Assembly (NCBI GenBank): GCA_903960515.1
Contig: CAJCBL010000234.1
Span: forward strand, 1-35,505
Length of the DNA: 35,505 bases
Direction of reading: 5' to 3'
DNA from: an uncultured Verrucomicrobiota bacterium
GTDB taxonomy: Bacteria; Verrucomicrobiota; Verrucomicrobiia; Opitutales; Opitutaceae
The notes beneath the pieces are model-generated. The model was given only the letters and a program-made list of their open reading frames with translations. It was not told where the DNA came from and ran no database searches. Made by a program: the position numbers and the translations under genes. Shown here one piece after another: positions 2,398 to 25,836 of this stretch (position 1 is the stretch's first letter; every line of letters starts with the position of its first letter).

Positions 2398-3432
2398 TCA
2401 GTAGCTGGTCTTGTCCAGCTTCACCTTGCCGCGGAAGATCCAGTAGATGCTCGCCGTATACGCGAGCACCACGGGCACTCCGATGAGCGCGATAGTGAGC
2501 ATCACCGCCAGCGTGCCTCGGGAGGAGGCCGAGTTGAAAGCCGTGAGGCTGTGGTCGGGGAACGGGCTGCTGAATACCAGATTCGGGTACGACCCCACTC
2601 CGAAGATCGCCATGAGCCCGGCCATCGCCGCGCAGGATGAGAGAAAGGCCAGGAACTCCTTCCCCCGATTCACCTCGCGGGGAATGTTCGCGATCGCCAG
2701 CACCACGGCCACCACCAGGCCGAAGAACCACGGCTCACCCCGGAACGCGTCGGTGATGTGCGGGATGTAGAGCAACGTGGCCAGAGTCACGAGCACATAG
2801 CACAGGATGAAGGCGATGATCAGCGGATTGACCCAGCGGCGCACTCTCGCCTGCACATCGCCCTCGGTCTTGAGGACCAGATAGATCGCGCCGTGCATCG
2901 CAAACAACGCAACCGTCGTCACGCCCATCGCCAAGGCGTACGGGTGCAACATCCCCAGGAAGCTGCCGGCGAACTCCCCGCGCTCATCGATCGGGATCCC
3001 CCAAGCGATGTTGCCCATCGCCACGCCGATCAGCAGCGCCGAGCCCGTGCTGCCCGCAGCGAACCCGACATCCCAGCACGCCCGCCAGCGCGGCGACGGG
3101 TGCTTGCTGCGAAACTCGATAGCCACCGCGCGGAATATCAACGCGCAAAGCAGCGCCATAAAGGCCAGGTAGAACCCGGAGAACACCGTAGCGTAGACGA
3201 TGGGAAACGCCGCAAAGAGCGCGCCTCCGCCGGTGACCAGCCACACCTCGTTGCCATCCCAGACCGGGCCGATCGCATTGAGAAACACCCGCCGATCCTC
3301 GTCGCGCTTCACCACGAAGAGGTGCAGCACCCCCACGCCAAGATCGAAGCCGTCGAGGATGACGTAGCCGGTGAAGAGCACGCCCACCAGGGCGAACCAG
3401 ACAGTGTTAAGATCAAGAGTACCGAAGTTCAT
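2398..3432 (-). CDS. cydB: Cytochrome bd-type ubiquinol oxidase subunit II
   Basis: CydB is the integral membrane partner of CydA in the bd-type quinol:O2 oxidoreductase, which reduces oxygen without pumping protons. The 344-residue length is slightly below the usual 335-380. It is hydrophobic throughout, with about eight to nine membrane segments. Family hallmarks visible are the N-terminal VWFALVGVLFTGYVILDGFD stretch (residues 11-30), GPVWDGNEVWL near 55-65, and a long GS/GN-rich central loop. The ATG at 3430-3432 has a good ribosome site (AAGGA, about 9 bases upstream on the minus strand). It lies 66 bases downstream of cydA, forming a two-gene operon. No cydX-like mini-gene or cydDC transporter follows. 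Confidence 0.95.
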   Translation of the reverse strand: MNFGTLDLNTVWFALVGVLFTGYVILDGFDLGVGVLHLFVVKRDEDRRVFLNAIGPVWDGNEVWLVTGGGALFAAFPIVYATVFSGFYLAFMALLCALIFRAVAIEFRSKHPSPRWRACWDVGFAAGSTGSALLIGVAMGNIAWGIPIDERGEFAGSFLGMLHPYALAMGVTTVALFAMHGAIYLVLKTEGDVQARVRRWVNPLIIAFILCYVLVTLATLLYIPHITDAFRGEPWFFGLVVAVVLAIANIPREVNRGKEFLAFLSSCAAMAGLMAIFGVGSYPNLVFSSPFPDHSLTAFNSASSRGTLAVMLTIALIGVPVVLAYTASIYWIFRGKVKLDKTSY

Positions 3433-3493
3433 TGGGCAAATCCTTCCGCTCGGTTTCCTTCGTTGGCTGCTGTAAGATTCATATTCCGGGTTC

Positions 3494-3530
3494 CGCTTTC
3501 AGCCTTCTGTATTCAGGCCCTTAGCCTTCG
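3494..3530. repeat. TTCAGCCTTC-type intergenic repeat
   Basis: CTTTCAGCCTTCTGTATTCAGGCCCTTAGCCTTCGG is an imperfect series of TTCAGCCTTC-like units. Similar units lie at about 5450-5480 and 10021-10054. On the minus strand it supplies the last codons and the stop of cydA, so the oxidase tail appears to run into the repeat. Confidence 0.4.
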
Positions 3531-4893
3531 GCCGAAAGCCCAGCGCCCACTTACCGGCCGGATGCAGGTCGGTGTCGTCGGGGCCGTGCTTGATCTTGTC
3601 GTTAAGCAAATAGAGGAACACCGCGAAGAGCAGCACGTACACCACGCCGAACATTATCATCGAAGCGACCACCTGGCTGGCCGTGACTACTGCGGACAGG
3701 GCCTCGGAGGTGCGCAGCAACTTGTACACGATCCAAGGTTGGCGCCCCACCTCTGCGGCCCACCACCCGGCTTGGTTTGCAATCTGCGGCCCGAGCACCG
3801 AGAGCGTAAGCAACCCGAGCAACAGGCGTGAGTTCTCCAAGGTCCCGCGCCACAGCGCCCAAGCTGCCCACGCGGCCAACCCGATCAACGCGAAACCCAC
3901 CACCACCATGATGTGGTAGAGCTGGAAGGTGAAGTTCACCGGCGGCCGGTCGGCCTTCGCCGGTGCCGTTTCCCTCAGTCCGGGCAACACGGCCCCGGCG
4001 TCGCCATGCACCAGCCAACTAAGCAGTCCCGGGATCGCCACGCCCCGGGTCGTCTCCGTCTTCTCATCAACCCAGCCGACCACATACAGCGGGGCACGAG
4101 CCATCGTCTCGTACTGCCCCTCGAAGGCGGCGAGCTTGGTTGGCTGGTGCTGGGCCACGCCCGCCGCGCTCCCATGTCCGCTGATGAGGGAGAGCACAGC
4201 GGCGATCGAGGCGACCGCCAGTCCAAGTTTCACCGACGCCACCGCAAAGTCGCGGTGCCGGCGCTTGAGCAGATACCAGGCGCCCACGCTAACCATGAAC
4301 CACGCGCCAGCCTGCCAGCAGCCGATGACGGTGTGAGTCAGCCGGTCCACCGACGACGGATTGAATACCATCGCCCAGAAATCGGTGATCTCCGCCCGGG
4401 CCTTGAGCCCCTCGCCCACGATGTGGTAGCCGGCCGGCGTCTGCATCCATGAATTTGCCACGATGATCCAGACCGCCGAGAAATGGGCACCGAAGGCGAC
4501 CATGCAAGTGGCGAGGAAATGGAGTCTCGGCCCGACCTTGTCCCAGCCGAACAGCAGCACCGCCAGAAAGCCCGACTCGAGGAAAAACGCGAAAATGCCC
4601 TCCGCCGCCAGGGCGCTGCCGAACACATCGCCCACGTAGCGCGAATACGTTGCCCAATTGGTGCCGAACTCGAATTCCAGCACGATGCCGGTCGCCACAC
4701 CTATGGCGAAGGTCAGAGCGAATACCTTCGTCCAGAACCGCGCCATCTGGTGATAGATGGGCTTCCTGGTCCACAGCCACATCGACTCATTGGCTACGAG
4801 CAGAAGCCCCAGCCCGATGCTCAGCGGGGGGTAGAGATAGTGGAACGCGGTAGTGAGCGCGAATTGCAGGCGGGAGAGCAGGAGTACGTCCAT
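3499..4893 (-). CDS. cydA: Cytochrome bd-type ubiquinol oxidase subunit I
   Basis: CydA carries haems b558, b595 and d and the quinol site. I take ATG 4893 as the start (464 residues), because [13 protein letters not shown] lines up with the family N-terminus. An upstream TTG at 4902 adds only three residues. Family residues can be seen in this numbering: His18 (FHYLYPPL), the acidic pair Glu96/Glu104 in [12 protein letters not shown], and His185 (RLTH). The quinol loop has Lys251 and Glu256 (TKLAAFE), then Met327 (LYHIM) and GRQPW at 381-385. The loop between the quinol residues and the next helix is short, so this is the short-Q-loop form. The C-terminal dozen residues are encoded by a TTCAGCCTTC-type repeat. 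Upstream lie about 600 bases without a gene, and I could not pick out an Fnr or ArcA-like site. Confidence 0.96.
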
Positions 4894-5510
4894 AATGTTC
4901 AACAGGGTTCAAAGCAGTTCCGCAGCCAGTTTGTCGTCGATTGAGCCGGGGACGAGGATTGGAAGCAATTGCGCTGTTGCCGGCGGCGCGAGCAGTCGCC
5001 GCGCATGGCCTCGCACCGAATCACCGCCCACCTTGGTGCGAGCGCGAAGCACCATCCGATAGGAAAGTCCGACGCGACACCGGCATTCACTTGCCCGCCT
5101 CCGAGTGGCACTCCCGCTCAGCCTCAGCCAGTCGCGGCCCCCCTGTTCCCCCGCCGCCGGCTCGACTTCCCCAAACTTGCCGACCGGAATCCCCTCCTGC
5201 TTGAAGAAGGTGGCGCTCGGGCGATGGGGGCTGCGGCGAAGTGGTCGAGTCATGACGCCAGGGAAAATCTGGGCGATAACCGGTTACGAGTATTAGGCGA
5301 TGACGCACCCGGCCAGCGGCCGCAACGTCCGAATCCCCTGCCCTGCCCCGGCCCCTGTGTCCTGCGTGGTCAAATCCGTTTTGGGGGGCCTTGTCTCATG
5401 TGATCCTTAGATTCTTTACGGGCAACAACGACTGCGTGCCGCATTCTGCTTTTCAGCATTCAGCCTTCTGCCTTCCTTCCCCCCTCCTTCTGCCTTAGGT
5501 CCTCCGCATC
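4894..5510. other. Gene-free region between cydA and the MBL-fold gene
   Basis: These 617 bases separate two divergent transcription units. Short open frames in both directions (such as 4909-5253 minus and 4969-5403 plus) have no recognisable domain and overlap each other, so I treat them as chance. At about 5450-5500 there is a pyrimidine-rich run with TTCAGCATTCAGCCTTCTGCCTTCC units directly before the next gene. No clear promoter or operator was identified. Confidence 0.45.
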
Positions 5511-13809: not shown

Positions 13810-14201
13810 CGGGGGATCATAGCAGATCGCGCGGGCCCGCGTCTAGGGGCGTGACAGGGTTTCGTGCGGATTTCCTCCGCAAGGCAAAAAAAAGACACCC
13901 CGCCTGTGCCGTGCGTTCATAAGGCTCTAGTCCGTTTTAAGTTCAAGTGGGAGTCTCCCGACGGCATCTGTCTTCCGATGAACGGCCTGACATCAACCGC
14001 CGGTTCCGACTCCCGAGGGAGAAATATAGGGCCGAGAGCGTGGTAATGAACAACTCGAACACTGCAGGGTGCGGAATCAAAGTAGACTGCCACACGGCTC
14101 CGTCAAACGGGCATTTGCCCAAGTTTTCGCTTTTGCGACAGCCTGGGTATCCCAGCCGAAACAAGATTGCTCCCCGCAAAGCCGGCGGCACTTTCGCCCC
14201 C
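13810..14201. other. Upstream region of the multihaem cytochrome gene
   Basis: This 392-base stretch precedes the cytochrome gene. Its frame is open throughout and joins the gene, but lacks protein-like character before the signal peptide. Two small hairpins lie shortly before the start: GGGCA/TGCCC (14109-14113 with 14116-14120) and CTGGG/CCCAG (14143-14155 region). A polypurine run (CAAAAAAAAG) sits near 13885. Base composition is less GC-rich than the flanking genes, as expected for a regulatory region, but I cannot assign promoter boxes. Confidence 0.4.
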
Positions 14202-16409
14202 ATGTCCAGCGCTACCCCCGCTAGGTCCCGGGCCGGATGCCGGCCGGCCGCCCTTTTCCCGCTGCTGCTCGCTCTGCTGGCGACCCTGTCTGTCTTCGCT
14301 ACTACACCACAACCCGGGCCCGCCGCTGGACAGCCGATCGTAGCCGGGCCCACTCCGGCCGCCGCAGCCATTCTCGAGACCAGCGACTGCCTGGCCTGCC
14401 ACGACGAGGTCTCCGTAGGCACACTACCCGCGCGCAAATCGGGAGCCGCCCCGGCCGTGCACACCGGCCTGCTTGGCAAATCGGTCCACGCCAAACTCGC
14501 CTGCACCGCCTGCCATGCCGACATCGCCGACGTACCGCATGCCGACAAACTGGCGCCCGCCCAGTGCGCCTCATGCCATGAGGCCGAGGGCAAGGCCTAC
14601 GCCAGCAGTATCCATGGAGTAAGCCACCTGATGGGCGCCTCCGACGCCGCGTCCTGCAAAGATTGCCACGGCGGGCACGACATCCTGCCCGTAGGCTCGC
14701 CCAGCAGCCCGGTCCTGAAGTTCAACCTGCCGCGCACCTGCGCCAAGTGCCACAGCAACCCGGGCCTCGCCGCCGAGTACCAGATGCCTCGCCCGGAGGC
14801 CGCCAGCCACTACATGGAGAGCATCCACGGCAAGGCCCTCCTCCAAGGCTTGGCCGTCGCCCCGTCCTGCAACGACTGCCACGGCGTGCACGACATCCGC
14901 CGTTCCGTCGACAAGGCCTCCCACACCAACCACCAGAACATCGCCCATACCTGCGGCCACTGCCACGTGGGCGTGGAGCAGGTCTACAATACCAGTATCC
15001 ACGGCCAACTGCTCGCCGCCGGCGACAAACGCGGTCCAGTGTGTTCGGACTGCCACTCCGCCCACGACATCGAGCATCCCGTGAGCGCACACTTCAAGGC
15101 CAGCAGCGACCAGAGCTGCGGCAAGTGCCACCAGGACCGCCTCGCCCACTACCGCGACACCTACCACGGCAAGGCCATGGCGCTGGGCCGCCCCAACGTA
15201 GCCGCCGATGTGGCCGCCTGCTACGACTGCCACGGCCACCACGATGTGCTGCCCGTGAGCGATCCGCGCTCGCGCCTCTCCTCCTCCCGTATCGTGGGCA
15301 CCTGCCAGCAATGCCATCCCGGGGTGGGCGCCAGTTTTGCGAAGTACCAACCCCACGCCAACCCCCTCGACAGCGTCAACTACCCGATCCTCAACAAGGT
15401 ATTCGTCTTCATGACGATCCTGCTGGTGGGCACCTTCGCCTTCTTCGGCATCCACACCCTCTTCTGGCTGGTGCGCTCCATCTACCTCTTCCTTCACGAC
15501 TCCAGACAGTTCCTCGAGGCCAAGGTCACGATCGAGCGCGACGAAGAATGGTTCACCCGCTTCACGCCCTTCGAGCGCTTCCTGCACATGATGGTCGTCA
15601 CCAGCTTCCTGCTGCTGACCATCACCGGTATGCCGCTGAAGTTCTACTACACGGCGTGGGCCCACTCGATCTTCGAGCTCATGGGTGGGGCTGATGTAGC
15701 CCGCTCGCTGCACCACTTCGGGGCCATCATCACCTTCGCCTACTTCGCCCTGCACCTGGGCGCCCTTGCCATCTCGCTGTGGCGGCGCCGCTCTGCGCTG
15801 CGCGATCCGGCCAGCGGCCGCCGCTCGCTGCGCCGGCTCCTCGGTGCGGTGTTCGGTCCCGATTCGATGTTCCCGTCCCTGCAGGACGGGCGCGACTTCG
15901 TAGCCCACAACCGCTGGTTCTTCGGCAAGGGCCCGCGCCCGCAGTTCGACCGCTGGACGTACTGGGAGCGCTTCGACTACCTGGCCGTGTTCTGGGGCGT
16001 GGCCGTAATCGGCGCCTCCGGACTGCTCATGTGGTTCCCGGCCTTCTTCACCCGGTTCTTCCCAGGCTGGATCATCAACATCGCCCATGTCGTCCACTCC
16101 GACGAGGCGCTGCTGGCCGCCGGCTTCATCTTCACCTTCCACTTCTTCAACACGCACTTCCGTCTCGAGAAATTCCCGATGGACACGGTGATCTTCTCGG
16201 GGCGCATCTCCAAGAGCGAGATGCTCCACGAGCGCAAACGCTGGTACGACCGCCTCGTGGCCGAGGGCCGCCTAGAGGCCCACCGTGTGCGCGACGACTG
16301 GGAGGGCCGTCGCCCGATCGCCCGTACCTTCGGCTTCCTCTTCTTCGGCCTCGGGTTGGTGCTGCTCGCTCTCATCGTCTATGCGATGACCTCCCGCCTG
16401 CTGCACTGA
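14202..16409 (+). CDS. Undecahaem cytochrome c fused to a b-type membrane cytochrome domain
   Basis: A 735-residue protein from ATG 14202, chosen because it gives a signal sequence (Arg-rich, then FPLLLALLATLSVFA, residues 19-33). An upstream in-frame start at 13947 has no support. Eleven CxxCH haem c sites lie at about residues 63, 101, 122, 152, 180, 223, 251, 281, 306, 340 and 368. A unit with SIHG or TYHG followed by CxDCHGxHD recurs at about 136-160, 207-231, 266-289 and 321-348, which suggests internal duplication. After residue 395 come a transmembrane helix and a cytochrome b561/formate-dehydrogenase-gamma-like domain (about 450-660). It has membrane segments and paired histidines (His462, His504/505, His518, His629, His632, His647, His652) that could hold b haems. 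A final helix lies at about 710-728. The likely role is to move electrons between the quinone pool and periplasmic partners. The partner is unknown. Confidence 0.9.
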   Translation: MSSATPARSRAGCRPAALFPLLLALLATLSVFATTPQPGPAAGQPIVAGPTPAAAAILETSDCLACHDEVSVGTLPARKSGAAPAVHTGLLGKSVHAKLACTACHADIADVPHADKLAPAQCASCHEAEGKAYASSIHGVSHLMGASDAASCKDCHGGHDILPVGSPSSPVLKFNLPRTCAKCHSNPGLAAEYQMPRPEAASHYMESIHGKALLQGLAVAPSCNDCHGVHDIRRSVDKASHTNHQNIAHTCGHCHVGVEQVYNTSIHGQLLAAGDKRGPVCSDCHSAHDIEHPVSAHFKASSDQSCGKCHQDRLAHYRDTYHGKAMALGRPNVAADVAACYDCHGHHDVLPVSDPRSRLSSSRIVGTCQQCHPGVGASFAKYQPHANPLDSVNYPILNKVFVFMTILLVGTFAFFGIHTLFWLVRSIYLFLHDSRQFLEAKVTIERDEEWFTRFTPFERFLHMMVVTSFLLLTITGMPLKFYYTAWAHSIFELMGGADVARSLHHFGAIITFAYFALHLGALAISLWRRRSALRDPASGRRSLRRLLGAVFGPDSMFPSLQDGRDFVAHNRWFFGKGPRPQFDRWTYWERFDYLAVFWGVAVIGASGLLMWFPAFFTRFFPGWIINIAHVVHSDEALLAAGFIFTFHFFNTHFRLEKFPMDTVIFSGRISKSEMLHERKRWYDRLVAEGRLEAHRVRDDWEGRRPIARTFGFLFFGLGLVLLALIVYAMTSRLLH

Positions 16410-19432: not shown

Positions 19433-20407
19433 TCAGTCGACGGGCCCCAGCCGCGCTTGGGCGCGCGTCAGGCTGGCGGCCATTGCGATGGCAGCCGCGA
19501 AACTGCGCCTGTCGGCCTCGCCCTTGCCGGCGAGGCCGAAGGCCGTGCCGTGGTCGGGGCTGGTGCGGATATGCGGCAGGCCCAGGGTGATGTTCACGCT
19601 GCGGTCGAAGTCCACGGCCTTCAGCGGCCCCAGGCCCTGGTCGTGGTAGGCGGCCACTGTGGCATCGAACTCGCCCTTGAGGGCGCGCACAAACACGGTG
19701 TCTCCGGGAAGCGGATCGCTCACGCCGGGCATGCTGCGGCGCAGGCGCCGCAGGAGCGGCTGCATCCAGCGCTGCTCCTCGTCGCCGAGCAGTCCGTGCT
19801 CGCCGGCGTGGGGATTAATCCCGCACACCGCGATGCGCGGCGTCTCCACGCCCTGGGCCCGGCACAGCCAGTGGGCCCGGCGCACCGCTCGCTCCAGCCG
19901 CTCGGGGGTGAGTTCGCTAGGCACCGCGCTTAGCGGCACATGCCACGTGGCCAGCGCCAGGCGCAGTTTGCCGCCGGCAAAAAGCATCGTCGGCTCCCCT
20001 CCCCAGCGTTGGGCGAAAAACTCCGTCTGCCCCACAAAGCCCGGGGACACCTTCGCCAGCCACTCCTTGCTCACCGGCCCGGTGACAACAGCGTCGAACA
20101 TCCCGTCGACACACCCCCGCGCCGCCTCCTCCATCGCCGCCAGCGCCACCCGGGCGCCGGCCATAGTGGGCTTGCCCGGGGCGGGCAGATACTGCGGGTC
20201 GCCCACGGCGAGTAGCCGGGCGTTGCACCGATCGCGCAACGGCTCCAGCCACGCCTGGGGCCCAAGCAACGTCACCCGACCCAGCCCTCGCGGATGCGCC
20301 AGGGCCCAGCTGGCCACAAGCTCGGGGCCTACCCCGGCCGGATCGCCGCAGGTGATGGCGAGGCGGGGGGCGGAGGGGCGCGGCCGGGGGGAAGTGGATG
20401 CGGGCAT
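19433..20407 (-). CDS. pdxA: 4-hydroxythreonine-4-phosphate dehydrogenase
   Basis: PdxA oxidises 4-phosphohydroxy-L-threonine with NAD(P)+ in the DXP-dependent pyridoxal-5'-phosphate pathway. From ATG 20407 it is 324 residues, the usual family length. Alternative starts at 20428 (ATG) and 20455 (TTG) would add a Gln/Arg-rich lead. Visible features are LAITCGDPAGVGPE (17-30), GPVSKEW near 110-116 and GQTEFFA, with metal ligands His156 (TWHVPL), His200 (INPHAGE) and His255 (YHDQGL). SPDHGTAF lies near residue 283. It is divergent from the hybrid kinase, with 63 bases between the two starts. It is followed after 175 bases by infC on the same strand. Confidence 0.94.
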   Translation of the reverse strand: MPASTSPRPRPSAPRLAITCGDPAGVGPELVASWALAHPRGLGRVTLLGPQAWLEPLRDRCNARLLAVGDPQYLPAPGKPTMAGARVALAAMEEAARGCVDGMFDAVVTGPVSKEWLAKVSPGFVGQTEFFAQRWGGEPTMLFAGGKLRLALATWHVPLSAVPSELTPERLERAVRRAHWLCRAQGVETPRIAVCGINPHAGEHGLLGDEEQRWMQPLLRRLRRSMPGVSDPLPGDTVFVRALKGEFDATVAAYHDQGLGPLKAVDFDRSVNITLGLPHIRTSPDHGTAFGLAGKGEADRRSFAAAIAMAASLTRAQARLGPVD

Positions 20408-20470
20408 GTGGGTTTGGACTGGGGCCATCCAAGCCTGCCGCCCTTGGAGTTTCAACTACCGGTTTGCGTC

Positions 20471-22489
20471 ATGAACAATTCGTTTCGCACGGCGAGAATC
20501 GGGTTTGCCCAGACCGGTTTCCTACTACGTCATGGAATCATGGAATTGGGATTTGCGCAGGCTTACCTTCAGGCGACCCTCATGGTCTCGCTCCTCTCGG
20601 TATGGGTGCTGGTGGGATTGTTCTACTACCTCAACCGCTACACCAAGCGCGAATACTTCACCATCTGGACGGCCGCCTGGCTCGCCTACGCGCTGTGGCT
20701 CACCCTCGGCCTCACCCGGCCCGATGAAGGCCCCACCAGCCTCATCTCGATGGTCAAGCAGTGCTGCGTGGCGGTATCCGCAGCCTTCATGCTCTGGGGC
20801 ACCCTGAGCTTCCTCGACATCCCCGTGCGCCAGACCCTCTTCGGCCTGTTCATGCTCTTCCTGGTCGCTTGGACGGTCGTCATGCCGCAGGTGGCCACCA
20901 ACGCCCTCCAGATCCAGCTCCCAGTATTCATCCTTCTAGGCTCCGGCAGCGTCTTCGCCGGCGTGTGCTTCTACCGGGTGCGCCGCCGGCTGCCCTATGT
21001 GGGCGCCGGGATGCTCGCGCTGGGCTTCCTGCTGTGGGGCCTGTACCTGGCGGTATACCCGGTGGCCCAACAGTATCCCGACCTCCACGCCATCGGCTAT
21101 CTCGTGGCCGCCGTGCTGCAGTTGTTCATAGCCGTGAGCATGATCGTGCTGGTGCTCGAGGAGGTGCGACACAAGACCGAGACTATGGTCGCCGAGATTG
21201 CCGACGTCCGCTCCGAAAAGGAGCGCCTGCAGGCCAAGGTGCTCACGGGCGAGGAACAGCTTCGCCGCATGTACGACCAGGTGCGCCTCACCGAGGGCGC
21301 CCAGCACGCCTACGACGAACTGCGGCGCACCCAGCAGACCGTCGTCCAACAGGAGCGCCTGCGCGCCATAGGCCAGATGGCCTGCGGCGTGGCCCACGAC
21401 ATCAACAACGCCCTCAGTCCGGTTTCTGCCTACACCGATCTGCTCACCCTCACCCTGCCCGACGACCTGCCCGACGAGGCCCGCCGCTACCTCGGCCACA
21501 TCCGCAGCGCCGCCGACGACGTGGCCCACATCGTAGGGCGCCTGCGCCAATGCTACCGCCCTCGCTCGGGTACTGAGCAACTGGAGGCAATCGCAGTCGA
21601 CCGCCTCATCGCCGAGGTGGCCGAGCTCACCCGTCCGCGCTGGCGCGACGACGCTCAGCGCAGGGGCGTCTCCATCGAGGTGGTCTGCACGCCCACCCCC
21701 GGCCTGCCCGCGCTGCTGGGCGACCCTTGCGAACTGCGCGAGGCGCTCGTGAACTTGGTATTCAATGCCGTCGACGCCCTCCCCTGCGGCGGACTGATCG
21801 AGCTGCGCACGAGCACCCAGGCCCCGAGCGCCGGCGTCGACGGGTCGCAGCGCCAGGTGGTCATCGAGGTTCGCGACAACGGCCTGGGTATGGACGAGGC
21901 CACCCGGCAGCACTGCCTGGAACCATTCTTCACCACCAAGGCGCAGCGGAGCACCGGACTGGGCCTGTCGATGGTGTACGGCATGATGCAGCGCCACGAC
22001 GGGCTCATCGAGATCGACAGCGCACCCAAGCGCGGCACCACCCTGCGGCTGATCCTGCCCGTGCGCGCCCTGCCCGCAGCCCCTGCCGGGAAGGTGCCGG
22101 CGGCCGCCGCCGGCCGCTCCCTGCGTATCCTCTGTGTTGACGACGAGCCGAAGCTGCGCGACCTCCTCGCCGATTGCTTGGGCAACTACGGCCACCGCGT
22201 CGTCGTGGCCGACAGCGGGCAACAGGGGCTGGCGATGTTCCGCTCCACCATGGAGGGTCCGGAGCACTACGAGGTAGTCATCACCGACCTGGGCATGCCC
22301 GAATTCGACGGCCGTCAGGTAGCGCAAGGCATCAAGGCCATGAGGCCCCGCACCCCCGTCATCATGATGACCGGTTGGAGCGACCTCATGAAGGACCAGG
22401 GGGAGCACTCGCCAGCGGTCGACGCCGTTCTGGGCAAGCCCCCCAAGCTCGAGGATCTCGTCGCCACGCTCCAATTGCTGGTGCCCTGA
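20471..22489 (+). CDS. Membrane hybrid histidine kinase with C-terminal receiver
   Basis: A 672-residue protein from ATG 20471; ATG 20540 is an alternative 23 codons in. Residues about 30-230 contain roughly seven hydrophobic membrane segments of an unrecognised sensor type. A predicted coiled coil (about 230-300) follows, then a dimerisation/phosphoacceptor domain with His309 in CGVAHDINNALSP. The ATPase domain has an N-box NLVFNAVDAL, a G1 box DNGLGMDE, FFTTK and a G2 box GLGLSMVYG. After a linker, the receiver begins near residue 552 with Asp557/Asp558, phosphoacceptor Asp606 (ITDLGMP), Thr634 and Lys656 (LGKPP). No separate response regulator lies nearby, so its output partner must be elsewhere. 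The signal sensed is unknown. Confidence 0.9.
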   Translation: MNNSFRTARIGFAQTGFLLRHGIMELGFAQAYLQATLMVSLLSVWVLVGLFYYLNRYTKREYFTIWTAAWLAYALWLTLGLTRPDEGPTSLISMVKQCCVAVSAAFMLWGTLSFLDIPVRQTLFGLFMLFLVAWTVVMPQVATNALQIQLPVFILLGSGSVFAGVCFYRVRRRLPYVGAGMLALGFLLWGLYLAVYPVAQQYPDLHAIGYLVAAVLQLFIAVSMIVLVLEEVRHKTETMVAEIADVRSEKERLQAKVLTGEEQLRRMYDQVRLTEGAQHAYDELRRTQQTVVQQERLRAIGQMACGVAHDINNALSPVSAYTDLLTLTLPDDLPDEARRYLGHIRSAADDVAHIVGRLRQCYRPRSGTEQLEAIAVDRLIAEVAELTRPRWRDDAQRRGVSIEVVCTPTPGLPALLGDPCELREALVNLVFNAVDALPCGGLIELRTSTQAPSAGVDGSQRQVVIEVRDNGLGMDEATRQHCLEPFFTTKAQRSTGLGLSMVYGMMQRHDGLIEIDSAPKRGTTLRLILPVRALPAAPAGKVPAAAAGRSLRILCVDDEPKLRDLLADCLGNYGHRVVVADSGQQGLAMFRSTMEGPEHYEVVITDLGMPEFDGRQVAQGIKAMRPRTPVIMMTGWSDLMKDQGEHSPAVDAVLGKPPKLEDLVATLQLLVP

Positions 22490-22673: not shown

Positions 22674-23540
22674 CTAGCGTCCCAGAAACTCGGTGATCCT
22701 CGGGATCAGTTCCTCGCGGGCGTCCTCGAGCACGTAGTGGCCGGCGTCCGGGTAATACTCGACCTCGGCGTGGGTGCAGACCTTCTTCCAGCGCTCCAGA
22801 AAATGGTCGTTGAAGCAGAAATCCCGGCCGCCCCACCCGATCAGCATCGGCTTCGCGCGCAGCCACGCCAGATCGGTGCCGATCTGCTGGAGGATCGCCC
22901 GGCTGGGATGATCGGGCTCCATGGGGATGTCGCGAACAAACTGGTGCACGGCCACGCGCGAGCTCCAGCTGCGGTACGGCGCGAGATAGCCGGCGCGCAC
23001 CGCGGGCGGGAGCGGCTTGGCGACCGCCATCTTCACGGCCGGCCCGGCGAAACCGTTGAGCCCGCACACCAGCAACGCGCCCAGCACCGGCCACCGGCAT
23101 ACCGAAATGCGCCGCGGGATACGCGTATCAGGAAAGGCGGCGGTATTGAGCACCACAATCTTGCCAGTGGAGTCGACCGAGCGCGTGACCACGCCCATGC
23201 CGATCGCGCCGCCCCAGTCGTGCACGATTAGATGGATGCGCTTGAGCCGCAGGTGGTTGAGCAGCTTCACCACATCGCCTATGCGCCGCTCCAGGCGGTA
23301 GGGATAGTGCGCCGGCTTGTCGGAGAGCCCCATGCCCACGTGGTCGGGGACCACGCACCGCATGCGTCCACGAAGGGCGAGCACGACATTGCGGTAGTAG
23401 AAGGACCACGTCGGGTTGCCGTGGAGCATGAGCACGGCCTCGTCGGTGCGCGGCCCCTCGTCGAGGTAGTGCATCCGGGCCCCGTCGCCCACATCCAGGA
23501 AGTTCGAATCGAACGGATATTCGCTGCGCCAGTTTTCCAT
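22674..23540 (-). CDS. oleB: OleB-like alpha/beta-hydrolase (haloalkane dehalogenase family)
   Basis: OleB decarboxylates a cis-beta-lactone to the final olefin in long-chain hydrocarbon synthesis. The 288-residue protein starts at ATG 23540, two bases after the oleA stop; ATG 23549 is possible. A longer in-frame extension upstream is a shadow of oleA. Family features are HGNPTWSF (40-47), the nucleophile Asp108 in HDWGGAIG, an acidic GWGGRDFCF near 236-243, and His268 in DAGHYVLED. An Asp nucleophile in HDWGG, rather than Ser, places it in the haloalkane-dehalogenase branch, to which OleB belongs. The name is chosen mainly because the gene directly follows an oleA-like gene. A dehalogenase or other ester hydrolase remains possible. 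Confidence 0.78.
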   Translation of the reverse strand: MENWRSEYPFDSNFLDVGDGARMHYLDEGPRTDEAVLMLHGNPTWSFYYRNVVLALRGRMRCVVPDHVGMGLSDKPAHYPYRLERRIGDVVKLLNHLRLKRIHLIVHDWGGAIGMGVVTRSVDSTGKIVVLNTAAFPDTRIPRRISVCRWPVLGALLVCGLNGFAGPAVKMAVAKPLPPAVRAGYLAPYRSWSSRVAVHQFVRDIPMEPDHPSRAILQQIGTDLAWLRAKPMLIGWGGRDFCFNDHFLERWKKVCTHAEVEYYPDAGHYVLEDAREELIPRITEFLGR

Positions 23541-23542
23541 GT

Positions 23543-24577
23543 TCAACATTCCAGCACTAGCATCACGCAATTGATCCCGCTGCCGATGCCCAGCAGCCCC
23601 ACACGTTGCCCGGTGGTGATGAACCCGGACTCCCGCGCCTGCGCCAGCGTGAACGGCAACGCCACCGAGCCGGTGTTGCCCATCGTTTCGAAGGTCGAGA
23701 AGTCCTTGGCCAAGTCCAGCCCGAGCGTCTCGTAGAGTTTTTTCCGATGCATCACGCCCACCTGGTGACAGACAAAGCGGTCGAAATCGGCCTCGCCATA
23801 ACCCAGCTCGCGGCGGAGATCCTCCCAGGTGAGCCGCGCGGTCTCCACGCCGGCCACCAGCAGCTGCTCCGAATCGGTCTGCATCGCGAGCGCCTCGCCC
23901 TCGGTGCGGTCGCCCATGCACAGAGCGCTGAATTCACTGGCTGCGCGGGCTACGCCGCCCACCAGTCGCGGGCTTCCCGCCGGCGCCAGATCGCGGTGAC
24001 AAAGCACCGCGGCCACCGCGCCCGAACCGATGGTGAGGTTGGCGAAATAGGGTTTGATCTGCTGGCGGTCGAGCGGGCTGGTGCACAGGCGCCGTATCGT
24101 CTCCTCGACCAGCGGCCCGCCGTTCTCGCCGCAGGCGACAATGCCGGCGCGCACCTGGCCGCACTCGATCATGCCGCCCAACAGCGTGCAGGCATTGAGA
24201 AACCCGAGACAGGCGTTGGAAAGGTCGAGCACCTGCATCTGTGCGGGAAGGCCGGATTCACGGTGCACGAAGGCCGCCGTAGCCGGCTCCAGCATGTCGC
24301 GCGACACCGCGCCGTGGACAAGCAGCCCGAGCGCGGACGCCGGCACCGTGGTCTTCGCGAGCACGGCGCGCACCGCCCGGGCGCTGGCAGCCGAGGGGCG
24401 GGTGCCGGGTTCCCAGAAACGCCGCTCCTTGATGCCGGTCATCAACTCCAGGCGGCCGAAGGGCAGCTTGAGCCGCTCGTAGAGCGGGCGTAGCCGTTCC
24501 TCCAACGCGGCCGAGGTGAGCGCCACCGGCGGCAGCGCCGTGGCCAAGGATTCGAGTACGACGTTCTTGAAGTGCAT
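23543..24577 (-). CDS. oleA: OleA-like thiolase (3-oxoacyl-ACP synthase III family)
   Basis: OleA performs head-to-head Claisen condensation of two fatty acyl-CoAs to a beta-keto acid, the first step of olefin synthesis. The 344-residue protein has a FabH-type fold with Cys123 (SNACLGF), His271 (CHQVG) and Asn301 (GNTGSVALP) as the catalytic set. Glu97 in VSRDMLEPAT corresponds to the Glu that in OleA reaches in from the second subunit, and LLGIGSGINC near the C-terminus is also OleA-like. These distinguish it from housekeeping FabH. ATG 24577 lies three bases after the fabI stop. It sits in a fabZ-fabI-oleA-oleB operon. FabH-like condensation with another primer cannot be excluded. Confidence 0.82.
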   Translation of the reverse strand: MHFKNVVLESLATALPPVALTSAALEERLRPLYERLKLPFGRLELMTGIKERRFWEPGTRPSAASARAVRAVLAKTTVPASALGLLVHGAVSRDMLEPATAAFVHRESGLPAQMQVLDLSNACLGFLNACTLLGGMIECGQVRAGIVACGENGGPLVEETIRRLCTSPLDRQQIKPYFANLTIGSGAVAAVLCHRDLAPAGSPRLVGGVARAASEFSALCMGDRTEGEALAMQTDSEQLLVAGVETARLTWEDLRRELGYGEADFDRFVCHQVGVMHRKKLYETLGLDLAKDFSTFETMGNTGSVALPFTLAQARESGFITTGQRVGLLGIGSGINCVMLVLEC

Positions 24578-24580
24578 CGG

Positions 24581-25393
24581 TCAGGCTTTGGTCTCGGGGC
24601 GCATCGCCAGCCGGGTGACCTCTTTGTCGAAGTAGTTGAGCCCGAGGCCGGCGTCGACGACCATCGTGGTGCCGTTGATACCGCTGGAGCGCGCGCTCAG
24701 GAGGAAGAGGGCGGCGTTGGCCACCTCCTGCGTCTCCAGATTGCGGCGGCGGAAGGTAAGCTTCTCGGCGTAGAGGTAGCTCTCCACGTAGCCCGGGATG
24801 CCCGAGCTGCTAGCCGTCTTCAGCGGACCAGCACCCACGGCGTTGAAGCGCACCTCGGTGTCGGCGCTGAACGACTTGGCAAGGTTGCGCACGATGCCGT
24901 CGAGCGCGGCCTTGATCGGCGACATGTACCCGTAGTTCTCCGCCGTCACCAGCAGCGACGAGATGCCCATCGCCACCACCGAGGCGTCGCGGGCCAGGTG
25001 CGGCTTGAACGCCCGCGCCAGCTCCACCAGCGAAAAGGCGGAGATCGTCGTGGCCTGCAGAAAGTCGGCGCGCCGGGTTTCATGGAACGGCTTGAAGCCC
25101 TCGGCATAGTTGGCGAATGCCACCGAATGCACGATACCGTGGAGCGGGCCGTACTGCGGCCCCACCTCGGCGGCCAGCGAGTCGCAGGCGCCGTCGCGCT
25201 CGAGATCGCACACGAAGACCGGAGCGCTCGGCGCGAGCTTTCGCACCTCGGCCCGGCGCTTCTCGGAGTGCACGCTGTAGAGCACGCGCGCGCCCTCGGC
25301 CTCGAGCGATTTGGCCACATGCCAGGCTACGCTCTTCTTGTTAGCCACGCCGGCGACCAGCACGGTCTTGCCGGCCAGTCCCAGGAAACTCAC
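24581..25393 (-). CDS. fabI: Enoyl-ACP reductase, FabI-type short-chain dehydrogenase
   Basis: This reduces trans-2-enoyl-ACP to acyl-ACP with NAD(P)H, the last step of each fatty-acid elongation round. The 270-residue protein has the FabI nucleotide site GVANKKSVAWHVAKSL (15-30), HSVAFA (89-94), and the Tyr154-x6-Lys161 pair (YGYMSPIK). VRFNAVGAGPLKT near 181-193 matches the family's loop. The first of the two active-site tyrosines of E. coli FabI (Tyr146) appears to be Ser in SSLLVTAENY, where the spacing is more like FabL. GTG 25393 overlaps the fabZ stop by four bases (GTGA). Its place before oleA suggests it supplies saturated acyl chains to that enzyme or is the housekeeping reductase. 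Confidence 0.88.
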   Translation of the reverse strand: MSFLGLAGKTVLVAGVANKKSVAWHVAKSLEAEGARVLYSVHSEKRRAEVRKLAPSAPVFVCDLERDGACDSLAAEVGPQYGPLHGIVHSVAFANYAEGFKPFHETRRADFLQATTISAFSLVELARAFKPHLARDASVVAMGISSLLVTAENYGYMSPIKAALDGIVRNLAKSFSADTEVRFNAVGAGPLKTASSSGIPGYVESYLYAEKLTFRRRNLETQEVANAALFLLSARSSGINGTTMVVDAGLGLNYFDKEVTRLAMRPETKA

Positions 25394-25836
25394 GTCGCAC
25401 CCCCGGGCGTCTTCCAGGCCACTGCGAAATCGACGCTGAGCACGCGCTTATCACCCGATTTGATACTGCCGGCCATCATCGTGAACCCGCCCACGACCTC
25501 CTTGATCTTCGTGGTGATCTCGATGGTTTCGCCCGGGAACACGGGGTTGCGGAAGCGCACGTCGCTCACCCGGGCCAGCAGCGGCACCCCACCTGGCGTC
25601 CCTGCCCCGGAGGCCTTGTCCCGACGCGCCATCAACAGCGCTCCGGTCTGGAACACCGCTTCGCACAGCAGCACGCCCGGAGTGATCGGCTGGCTCGGGT
25701 AATGCCCGCGGTAGAAATCCTCGTCGGCGCGGAAAGTGCGGCGTGCCACCAGCGAGTCGGCCGTCTCGGCGACGATTTCGTCGACAAAAAGAAATGGCGG
25801 GCGATGCGGGATGAGATCGGTTACGGAGTCGGACAT
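25390..25836 (-). CDS. fabZ: 3-hydroxyacyl-ACP dehydratase, FabZ-type hot-dog fold
   Basis: FabZ removes water from 3-hydroxyacyl-ACP to give the trans-2-enoyl form used by FabI. From ATG 25836 it is 148 residues, the normal size; TTG 25848 would add four. The family pattern LIPHRPPFLFVDEI is at 8-21. The active-site His45 is in FYRGHYPSQPITPGV and Glu59 in LLCEAVFQ, with the correct 14-residue spacing. It is the first gene of the tight fabZ-fabI-oleA-oleB operon. The region upstream (25837-26052) holds the divergent promoter area shared with the lipoprotein gene. Confidence 0.9.
   Translation of the reverse strand: MSDSVTDLIPHRPPFLFVDEIVAETADSLVARRTFRADEDFYRGHYPSQPITPGVLLCEAVFQTGALLMARRDKASGAGTPGGVPLLARVSDVRFRNPVFPGETIEITTKIKEVVGGFTMMAGSIKSGDKRVLSVDFAVAWKTPGGAT

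Follow-up and report, generated by a model that had tools for sequence, protein, structure and literature searches.

The window analyzed here is a stretch of 35,505 nucleotides (contig CAJCBL010000234.1, assembly GCA_903960515.1) from an uncultured Verrucomicrobiota bacterium of the order Opitutales, family Opitutaceae. On its minus strand lies a compact operon, fabZ-fabI-oleA-oleB, in which two genes related to those of fatty acid synthesis are joined to two genes of the OleABCD olefin pathway. The features of the locus, with the evidence for each, are:

25390–25836, minus strand: FabZ-like 3-hydroxyacyl-acyl carrier protein (ACP) dehydratase, 148 aa, putative ole-linked paralog (Pfam, NCBIfam, residues)
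24581–25393, minus strand: FabI-like enoyl-ACP reductase, 270 aa, putative ole-linked paralog in which Ile144 stands in for the first active-site Tyr (NCBIfam, PDB sequence and fold matches)
23543–24577, minus strand: OleA, 344 aa, thiolase-type head-to-head condensing enzyme (NF006720, PDB, tree)
22674–23540, minus strand: OleB-like beta-lactone decarboxylase with haloalkane-dehalogenase fold, 288 aa (tree, residues, dehalogenase models below cut-off)
20294–22489, plus strand: hybrid histidine kinase, convergent neighbor outside the operon (HisKA, HATPase_c and Response_reg domains)

The open reading frames (ORFs) of FabZ and FabI overlap by 4 bases (GTGA), FabI and OleA are spaced by 3 bases, and OleA and OleB by 2 bases (TGA-AC-ATG), exactly as in the original prediction of four minus-strand genes at 22674–25836, which had also correctly named the convergent kinase as the next gene. 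The start of OleB was taken as the ATG at 23540, 2 bases past the OleA stop; the alternative is an in-frame TTG overlapping the end of OleA, and the OleB residue numbers used here count from the residue after this TTG. When compared to two genomes of the same genus, differences in all four genes are concentrated at the third codon position (against locus L058, 17/13/93 at codon positions 1/2/3 for fabI and 32/24/129 for oleA), indicating that all four ORFs are real genes selected as proteins. The four-gene order, whose conservation in relatives the original prediction had left to be checked, recurs in 28 of 30 short OleA loci, the two exceptions being a compact ole cluster (L025) and a lone OleA (L052), and in 63 of the 80 loci listed in a contig search with the FabI-like protein alone, which argues that the order is not due to chance. 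The total of such FabI-like loci is at least 80, with FabI-like proteins outside the Opitutales lying beyond the coverage of this search; the titles of the 80 are those of Verrucomicrobiota taxa or simply "bacterium", and include Pelagicoccus, Lacunisphaera, Rariglobus, Ereboglobus and many Opitutaceae assemblies. Genes in these loci were called at 80 bits or more.

The OleA protein scores 409.7 bits (cut-off 285) with the NCBIfam equivalog model NF006720, which we take to be the model standing for OleA, in agreement with its best PDB match, 3row (E-value 2e-63), presumably the OleA of Xanthomonas campestris. FabH/KASIII models of NCBIfam reach 85 bits at most. The catalytic Cys, His and Asn of OleA and the Glu of the second monomer, taken here as C143, H285, N315 and E117 in X. 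campestris numbering, align with C123, H271, N301 and E97 of this protein, and these four residues are invariant in 18 of 18 aligned OleA rows. In an IQ-TREE phylogeny of 55 rows, including six KASIII rows from the same and related genomes, the protein groups with 25 other Opitutales OleA rows (100/100) among the OleA sequences as a whole, and the six KASIII rows branch separately. The X. campestris OleA also falls among the OleA rows; like a Nonomuraea row, it sits on a long branch, so that the precise position of both is uncertain. A housekeeping FabH is ruled out by the NF006720 score and the tree, and the original assignment to OleA rather than FabH is upheld. Head-to-head condensation of two acyl thioesters is the predicted activity of OleA in this organism. 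On plasmids, OleA matches were weak, the 20 listed having ≤30% identity.

Haloalkane-dehalogenase models of NCBIfam give 149 bits with the OleB protein, below the cut-off of 265. In a tree of 40 rows, 35 OleB-like rows, including this protein and the OleB from the complete oleABCD cluster of a relative (G029), form one group (97/99), and five annotated haloalkane dehalogenases taken from plasmids stand apart from it on long branches. This grouping rules out a plain haloalkane dehalogenase and agrees with the identity first proposed for this gene. An OleB-type active site is composed of an Asp nucleophile, His, Trp and Asn; the protein carries N43, D109, W110, H269 and D274, and D109, H269, W110 and N43 are kept in 64–65 of 65 listed loci, the remainder being a gap.

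No OleC or OleD adjoins the operon in the window, and the original prediction held these two genes to be absent, or else to lie elsewhere. The latter option proved correct: a search of the whole genome for homologs located both genes side by side on another contig, C186. The genome contains 14 AMP-binding stretches, and the OleC at C186:22592–24430 scores 605.2 bits with NF006754, matched in two stretches, a model whose cut-off of 478 is passed in none of 14 control genomes; its next best NCBIfam models are two olefin beta-lactone synthetase families. Directly downstream, the OleD at C186:24576–25625 has as its best models two NCBIfam families of 2-alkyl-3-oxoalkanoate reductases (OleD). In the NCBIfam rankings of both OleC and OleD, a model of the olefin pathway takes first or second place. 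As judged from these family assignments, the OleABCD gene set of this genome is complete but split into fabZ-fabI-oleA-oleB and oleC-oleD, an arrangement shared by the majority of its kin in the order. The oleAB and oleCD genes are on different contigs and the four are not in one cluster; a one-cluster oleABCD is the usual but not obligatory arrangement.

The original prediction had also considered a ketone or other modified lipid, made by OleA and OleB acting without OleC and OleD. Genes for OleC and OleD are indeed not near OleA in the window or in ten wider stretches of relatives (L057–L066). The same holds more widely in the phylum: OleA was detected at an E-value of up to 1e-85 in 65 of 240 genomes, 27 of them outside the order, and in the surroundings of 20 of these 27, several cut by contig ends, OleA or OleA-OleB stands without OleC or OleD in every case (OleB adjoining OleA in 11 of 20). 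Dispersal of ole genes is thus common in the phylum. Because OleC and OleD are encoded in the genome, another end product such as a ketone is not needed, and both are likewise present in 47 of 50 OleA genomes of the comparison described below. Gene content refutes the ketone proposal, as stated, for this genome, and we consider it very improbable.

Several further observations were made on OleC. The OleC of this genome (locus L055, 7545–9458) matches its family model in two pieces, as if there were an insertion after about residue 345, and the OleC of several relatives likewise matches in two pieces. A short dispersed repeat interrupting OleC was considered and dropped: the repeat matches once in the window, once in L055 and nowhere in 30 loci of relatives. 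A second OleC-like AMP ligase (L056, contig C226 of this genome, 5454–10585) scores 392 bits, below the OleC cut-off, and is preceded by genes for DUF3419 and GNAT acetyltransferase proteins, together with an ORF that has no match in Pfam; this ligase is probably something other than OleC, and its surroundings look like a separate lipid-type gene cluster.

The FabZ-like protein contains a Pfam FabA-like domain (69.7 bits) and falls below both NCBIfam FabZ cut-offs (97.2 bits against 113, and 93.5 against 155). Its H45 and E59, corresponding to what we take to be the catalytic His and Glu of FabZ, are invariant in 17 of 17 alignment rows and in all 79 listed loci that have FabZ. For the FabI-like protein the best NCBIfam families are FabI, with 175.4 bits and a cut-off of 370 that is not passed (FabI cut-offs range from 299 to 477 among the 25 families listed), and the best PDB matches are FabI both by sequence and by fold, the listed fold matches being FabI or enoyl-ACP reductases of that kind. 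The predicted structure is of middling confidence (predicted local distance difference test score 75.7, with residues 193–214 below 50). The FabI active site is presumably Tyr-Tyr-Lys (Y146, Y156 and K163 in E. coli). Here the Tyr-x6-Lys pair is kept as Y154 and K161, and the first active-site Tyr is replaced by an Ile144-Ser-Ser stretch that is gap-free in both alignments to FabI PDB sequences, with I144 present in all 80 listed FabI-like loci.

Two proteins encoded elsewhere in the genome are presumably its housekeeping enzymes: FabV, scoring 627.9 bits against a cut-off of 400, and a fusion of LpxC with FabZ, which scores 559.9 bits against 465 and whose FabZ part passes both FabZ cut-offs. 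The presence of FabV rules out the operon's FabI-like protein as the sole enoyl reductase. The second-ranked FabI-like protein in the genome reaches only 35 bits, FabK at 32 bits stays far short of its cut-off (453), and there are four other FabA-domain stretches besides the operon's FabZ-like gene. The pair are divergent paralogs of housekeeping FabZ and FabI. The earlier description of "two fatty acid elongation genes" calls for caution, given their scores below cut-off and the presumed housekeeping enzymes elsewhere.

One explanation of the altered FabI site is special chemistry, in which a double bond is isomerized by the dehydratase, or else passed over or rerouted by the altered reductase; OleA would then be fed atypical chains, either unsaturated or special in length, and yield a non-ordinary olefin. 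The uniform Tyr-to-Ile exchange with its invariant I-S-S stretch in all 80 listed FabI-like proteins, and the scores of both proteins below the listed equivalog cut-offs, fit this idea, as does the case of Shewanella, where OleA is supplied by a synthase dedicated to it (PMC6463001), but the ordinary catalytic residues of both enzymes are kept and the best fold matches are FabI. InhA, moreover, has a non-Tyr residue (Phe) at the place of the first active-site Tyr, which counts against reading the exchange as a sign of new chemistry. We find special chemistry doubtful and would give it little weight.

The link between the pair and OleA was followed across 57 genomes (its own and those of the genus, family and order), in counts that ignore kinship among genomes. 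OleA and OleC were called over their model cut-offs, OleD at E-values up to 1e-30 and FabI-like proteins up to 1e-25. OleA is present in 50 of the 57, OleC and OleD in 51 each, and FabI-like in 52, one of these being a fragment at a contig end (G053). Every one of the 50 OleA genomes has the FabI-like gene, 48 have OleC over cut-off, 49 have OleD and 47 have all four; G001 and G041 have OleC-like matches below cut-off only. In 45 of the 50, no more than 1 kb separates the FabI-like gene from OleA. Among the other five, the separation may stem from contig breaks in G012, G025 and G041, and in G025 it does, a piece of OleA adjoining FabI there; the only clear cases are G044 and G047, where both genes are kept well inside different contigs. 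The FabI of G044 showed no neighboring FabZ. The operon is as tight as first described, and the presence of the FabI-like gene in all OleA genomes bears out the coupling of FabZ and FabI to OleA first suggested and points to a strong genetic link across the Opitutales between olefin synthesis and two spare fatty acid enzymes.

Four genomes that are 93–98% complete (G040, G042, G043 and G051) lack OleA, OleC over cut-off, OleD and FabI-like, and all four keep FabV, which was found in 54 of the 57 (not in G001, G041 or G048). G033 carries FabI-like with no more than a fragment of OleA, each lying at the start of a contig; G053 has OleC and OleD along with its FabI-like fragment and no OleA; and G050 (64% complete) has OleC without OleA, OleD or FabI-like. 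OleC and OleD are within 1 kb of each other in 37 of the 49 genomes having both and apart in 12, including the same-genus G002. OleA and OleC are 25 kb to 3.2 Mb apart in seven genomes with both on one contig, leaving aside the compact cluster of G029. Two arrangements coexist in this last genome (L262, L263): the OleA of its compact oleA-oleB-oleC-oleD cluster is a distant one (42% identity), and the genome also has a fabZ-fabI-oleA-oleB operon and a separate oleC-oleD pair on its contig C24.

Beyond the 63 with the full order, six of the 80 listed loci have FabZ-FabI-OleA, of which four end inside OleA, one (L155) breaks off within a short match to OleB, and one (L141) has room for OleB but lacks it; another (L216) has FabI-OleA-OleB, starting at the contig end. 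Ten have FabZ-FabI without adjoining OleA; in one of these, L171, the contig stops immediately behind FabI. No OleC was detected in the 80 stretches at an E-value of 1e-5. Six of them have a weak OleD-like match (44–57 bits, 25–28% identity) several kb upstream of FabZ; the OleD of most of the family scores ~400 bits, and these matches are probably another epimerase-type enzyme.

In a second alternative, FabZ and FabI are redundant isozymes of fatty acid synthesis that share the oleAB promoter and serve general lipid synthesis, with no specific olefin role. The ten loci without adjoining OleA could be taken this way, including one (L143, 3757–7801) in which FabZ-FabI follow genes that by eye, from their first residues, appear to be of PfaD/nitronate-monooxygenase type and FabV-like. 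However, the four near-complete genomes without OleA, OleC and OleD also lack the FabI-like gene and yet keep FabV, the FabI-like gene is kept in G044 and G047 though apart from OleA, and both proteins diverge from housekeeping FabZ and FabI. Redundancy of this kind appears unlikely.

We consider it probable that the operon is one half of a complete two-locus OleABCD pathway for ordinary head-to-head olefins, with an attached, pathway-dedicated FabZ-like/FabI-like acyl supply. This reading draws on the presence, order and conservation of the genes, on their catalytic residues and on their co-occurrence. The FabZ-like enzyme would dehydrate, and the FabI-like enzyme reduce, the final acyl-ACP intermediates, handing saturated acyl chains to OleA; OleA would join two acyl thioesters to a 2-alkyl-3-keto acid, OleD would reduce it, OleC would close the beta-lactone, and OleB would release CO2, giving a long internal alkene located in the membrane. 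Each of these steps in this organism, the product, the supply role of the pair and the purpose of its altered FabI site are predictions from sequence. Going further, the pair may be a type II module that the Opitutales took over, a divergent FabZ plus a FabI whose active site was rebuilt, and that produces one particular acyl chain solely for OleA. The olefin acyl pool would then be kept apart from FabV-dependent phospholipid synthesis, a proposal we put forward only tentatively.

Several observations weigh against the dedicated two-locus pathway. Neither OleC nor OleD reaches its lineage-specific NCBIfam cut-off (493 of 900 and 357 of 580 bits), and with the first active-site Tyr missing, enoyl-reductase activity of the FabI-like protein is not certain. 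The ten listed loci with FabZ-FabI and no adjoining OleA indicate that the pair may serve something besides OleA, although G044 and G047 have OleA elsewhere in the genome. Outside the order, FabZ or FabI was found beside OleA in none of the 20 surroundings, where no genome-wide FabI-like search was made, so OleA as such does not require the pair; the FabZ-FabI link is, as far as tested, an Opitutales feature. Finally, a single deletion of adjacent genes would produce part of the co-occurrence, which is uncorrected for kinship.

In the favored two-locus reading the hybrid histidine kinase at 20294–22489 has no relation to the olefin pathway. Elsewhere in the window, judging by sequence only, two minus-strand genes at 2398–4902 resemble cytochrome bd oxidase subunits, and a plus-strand gene at 13947–16409 appears to encode a multi-heme protein with many CxxCH motifs and a cytochrome-b-like membrane part at its end.

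The full olefin gene set of this genome is settled, and if the pair is indeed dedicated to OleA, the source of OleA's chains in this lineage is answered as well. A search for a compact oleABCD cluster would miss the pathway in much of the Verrucomicrobiota. The ole genes of Verrucomicrobia, including Opitutae, have been reported before (Sukovich et al. 2010, as cited in PMC5673642 and PMC7158056), and PMC5673642 refers to an oleABCD operon in the Opitutae genomes it covers. Four genomes named there (Tous-C10FEB, C1TDCM, C4FEB and C8FEB) are among the 80 listed loci: three have fabZ-fabI-oleA-oleB and one (L189) ends inside oleA. No OleC is present at these four loci, the remainder of those genomes not having been searched for oleC or oleD, and two of them have weak OleD-like matches only (57 and 46 bits, 26–27% identity). 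No published report of the fabZ-fabI/ole link or of the split was found in the literature searched, mostly without subscription papers; the occurrence of ole genes in this group is already published.

With the OleABCD pathway of Xanthomonas and Shewanella, this system shares all four proteins, as best or second-best pathway-model matches where models exist, and the active-site residues of OleA and OleB; it differs in that oleAB and oleCD form two loci, with oleAB led by fabZ-fabI. The FabI-like protein resembles FabI enoyl-ACP reductases in its best fold and sequence PDB matches and its Tyr-x6-Lys pair, and departs from them in Ile144, in scores below the listed NCBIfam FabI cut-offs, and in occurring in a genome that also has a full FabV. 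The nearest parallel is in Shewanella and Photobacterium, where, according to PMC6463001, a Pfa synthase is genetically linked to OleA and supplies its acyl chains. In both cases a system that makes fatty acids is genetically linked to OleA, with the supply of acyl chains being a proposal for the operon described here; there it is a large polyunsaturated fatty acid synthase, whereas here it would consist of two type II enzymes only, a dehydratase and an enoyl reductase, with no further fatty acid gene among the four genes of the operon.

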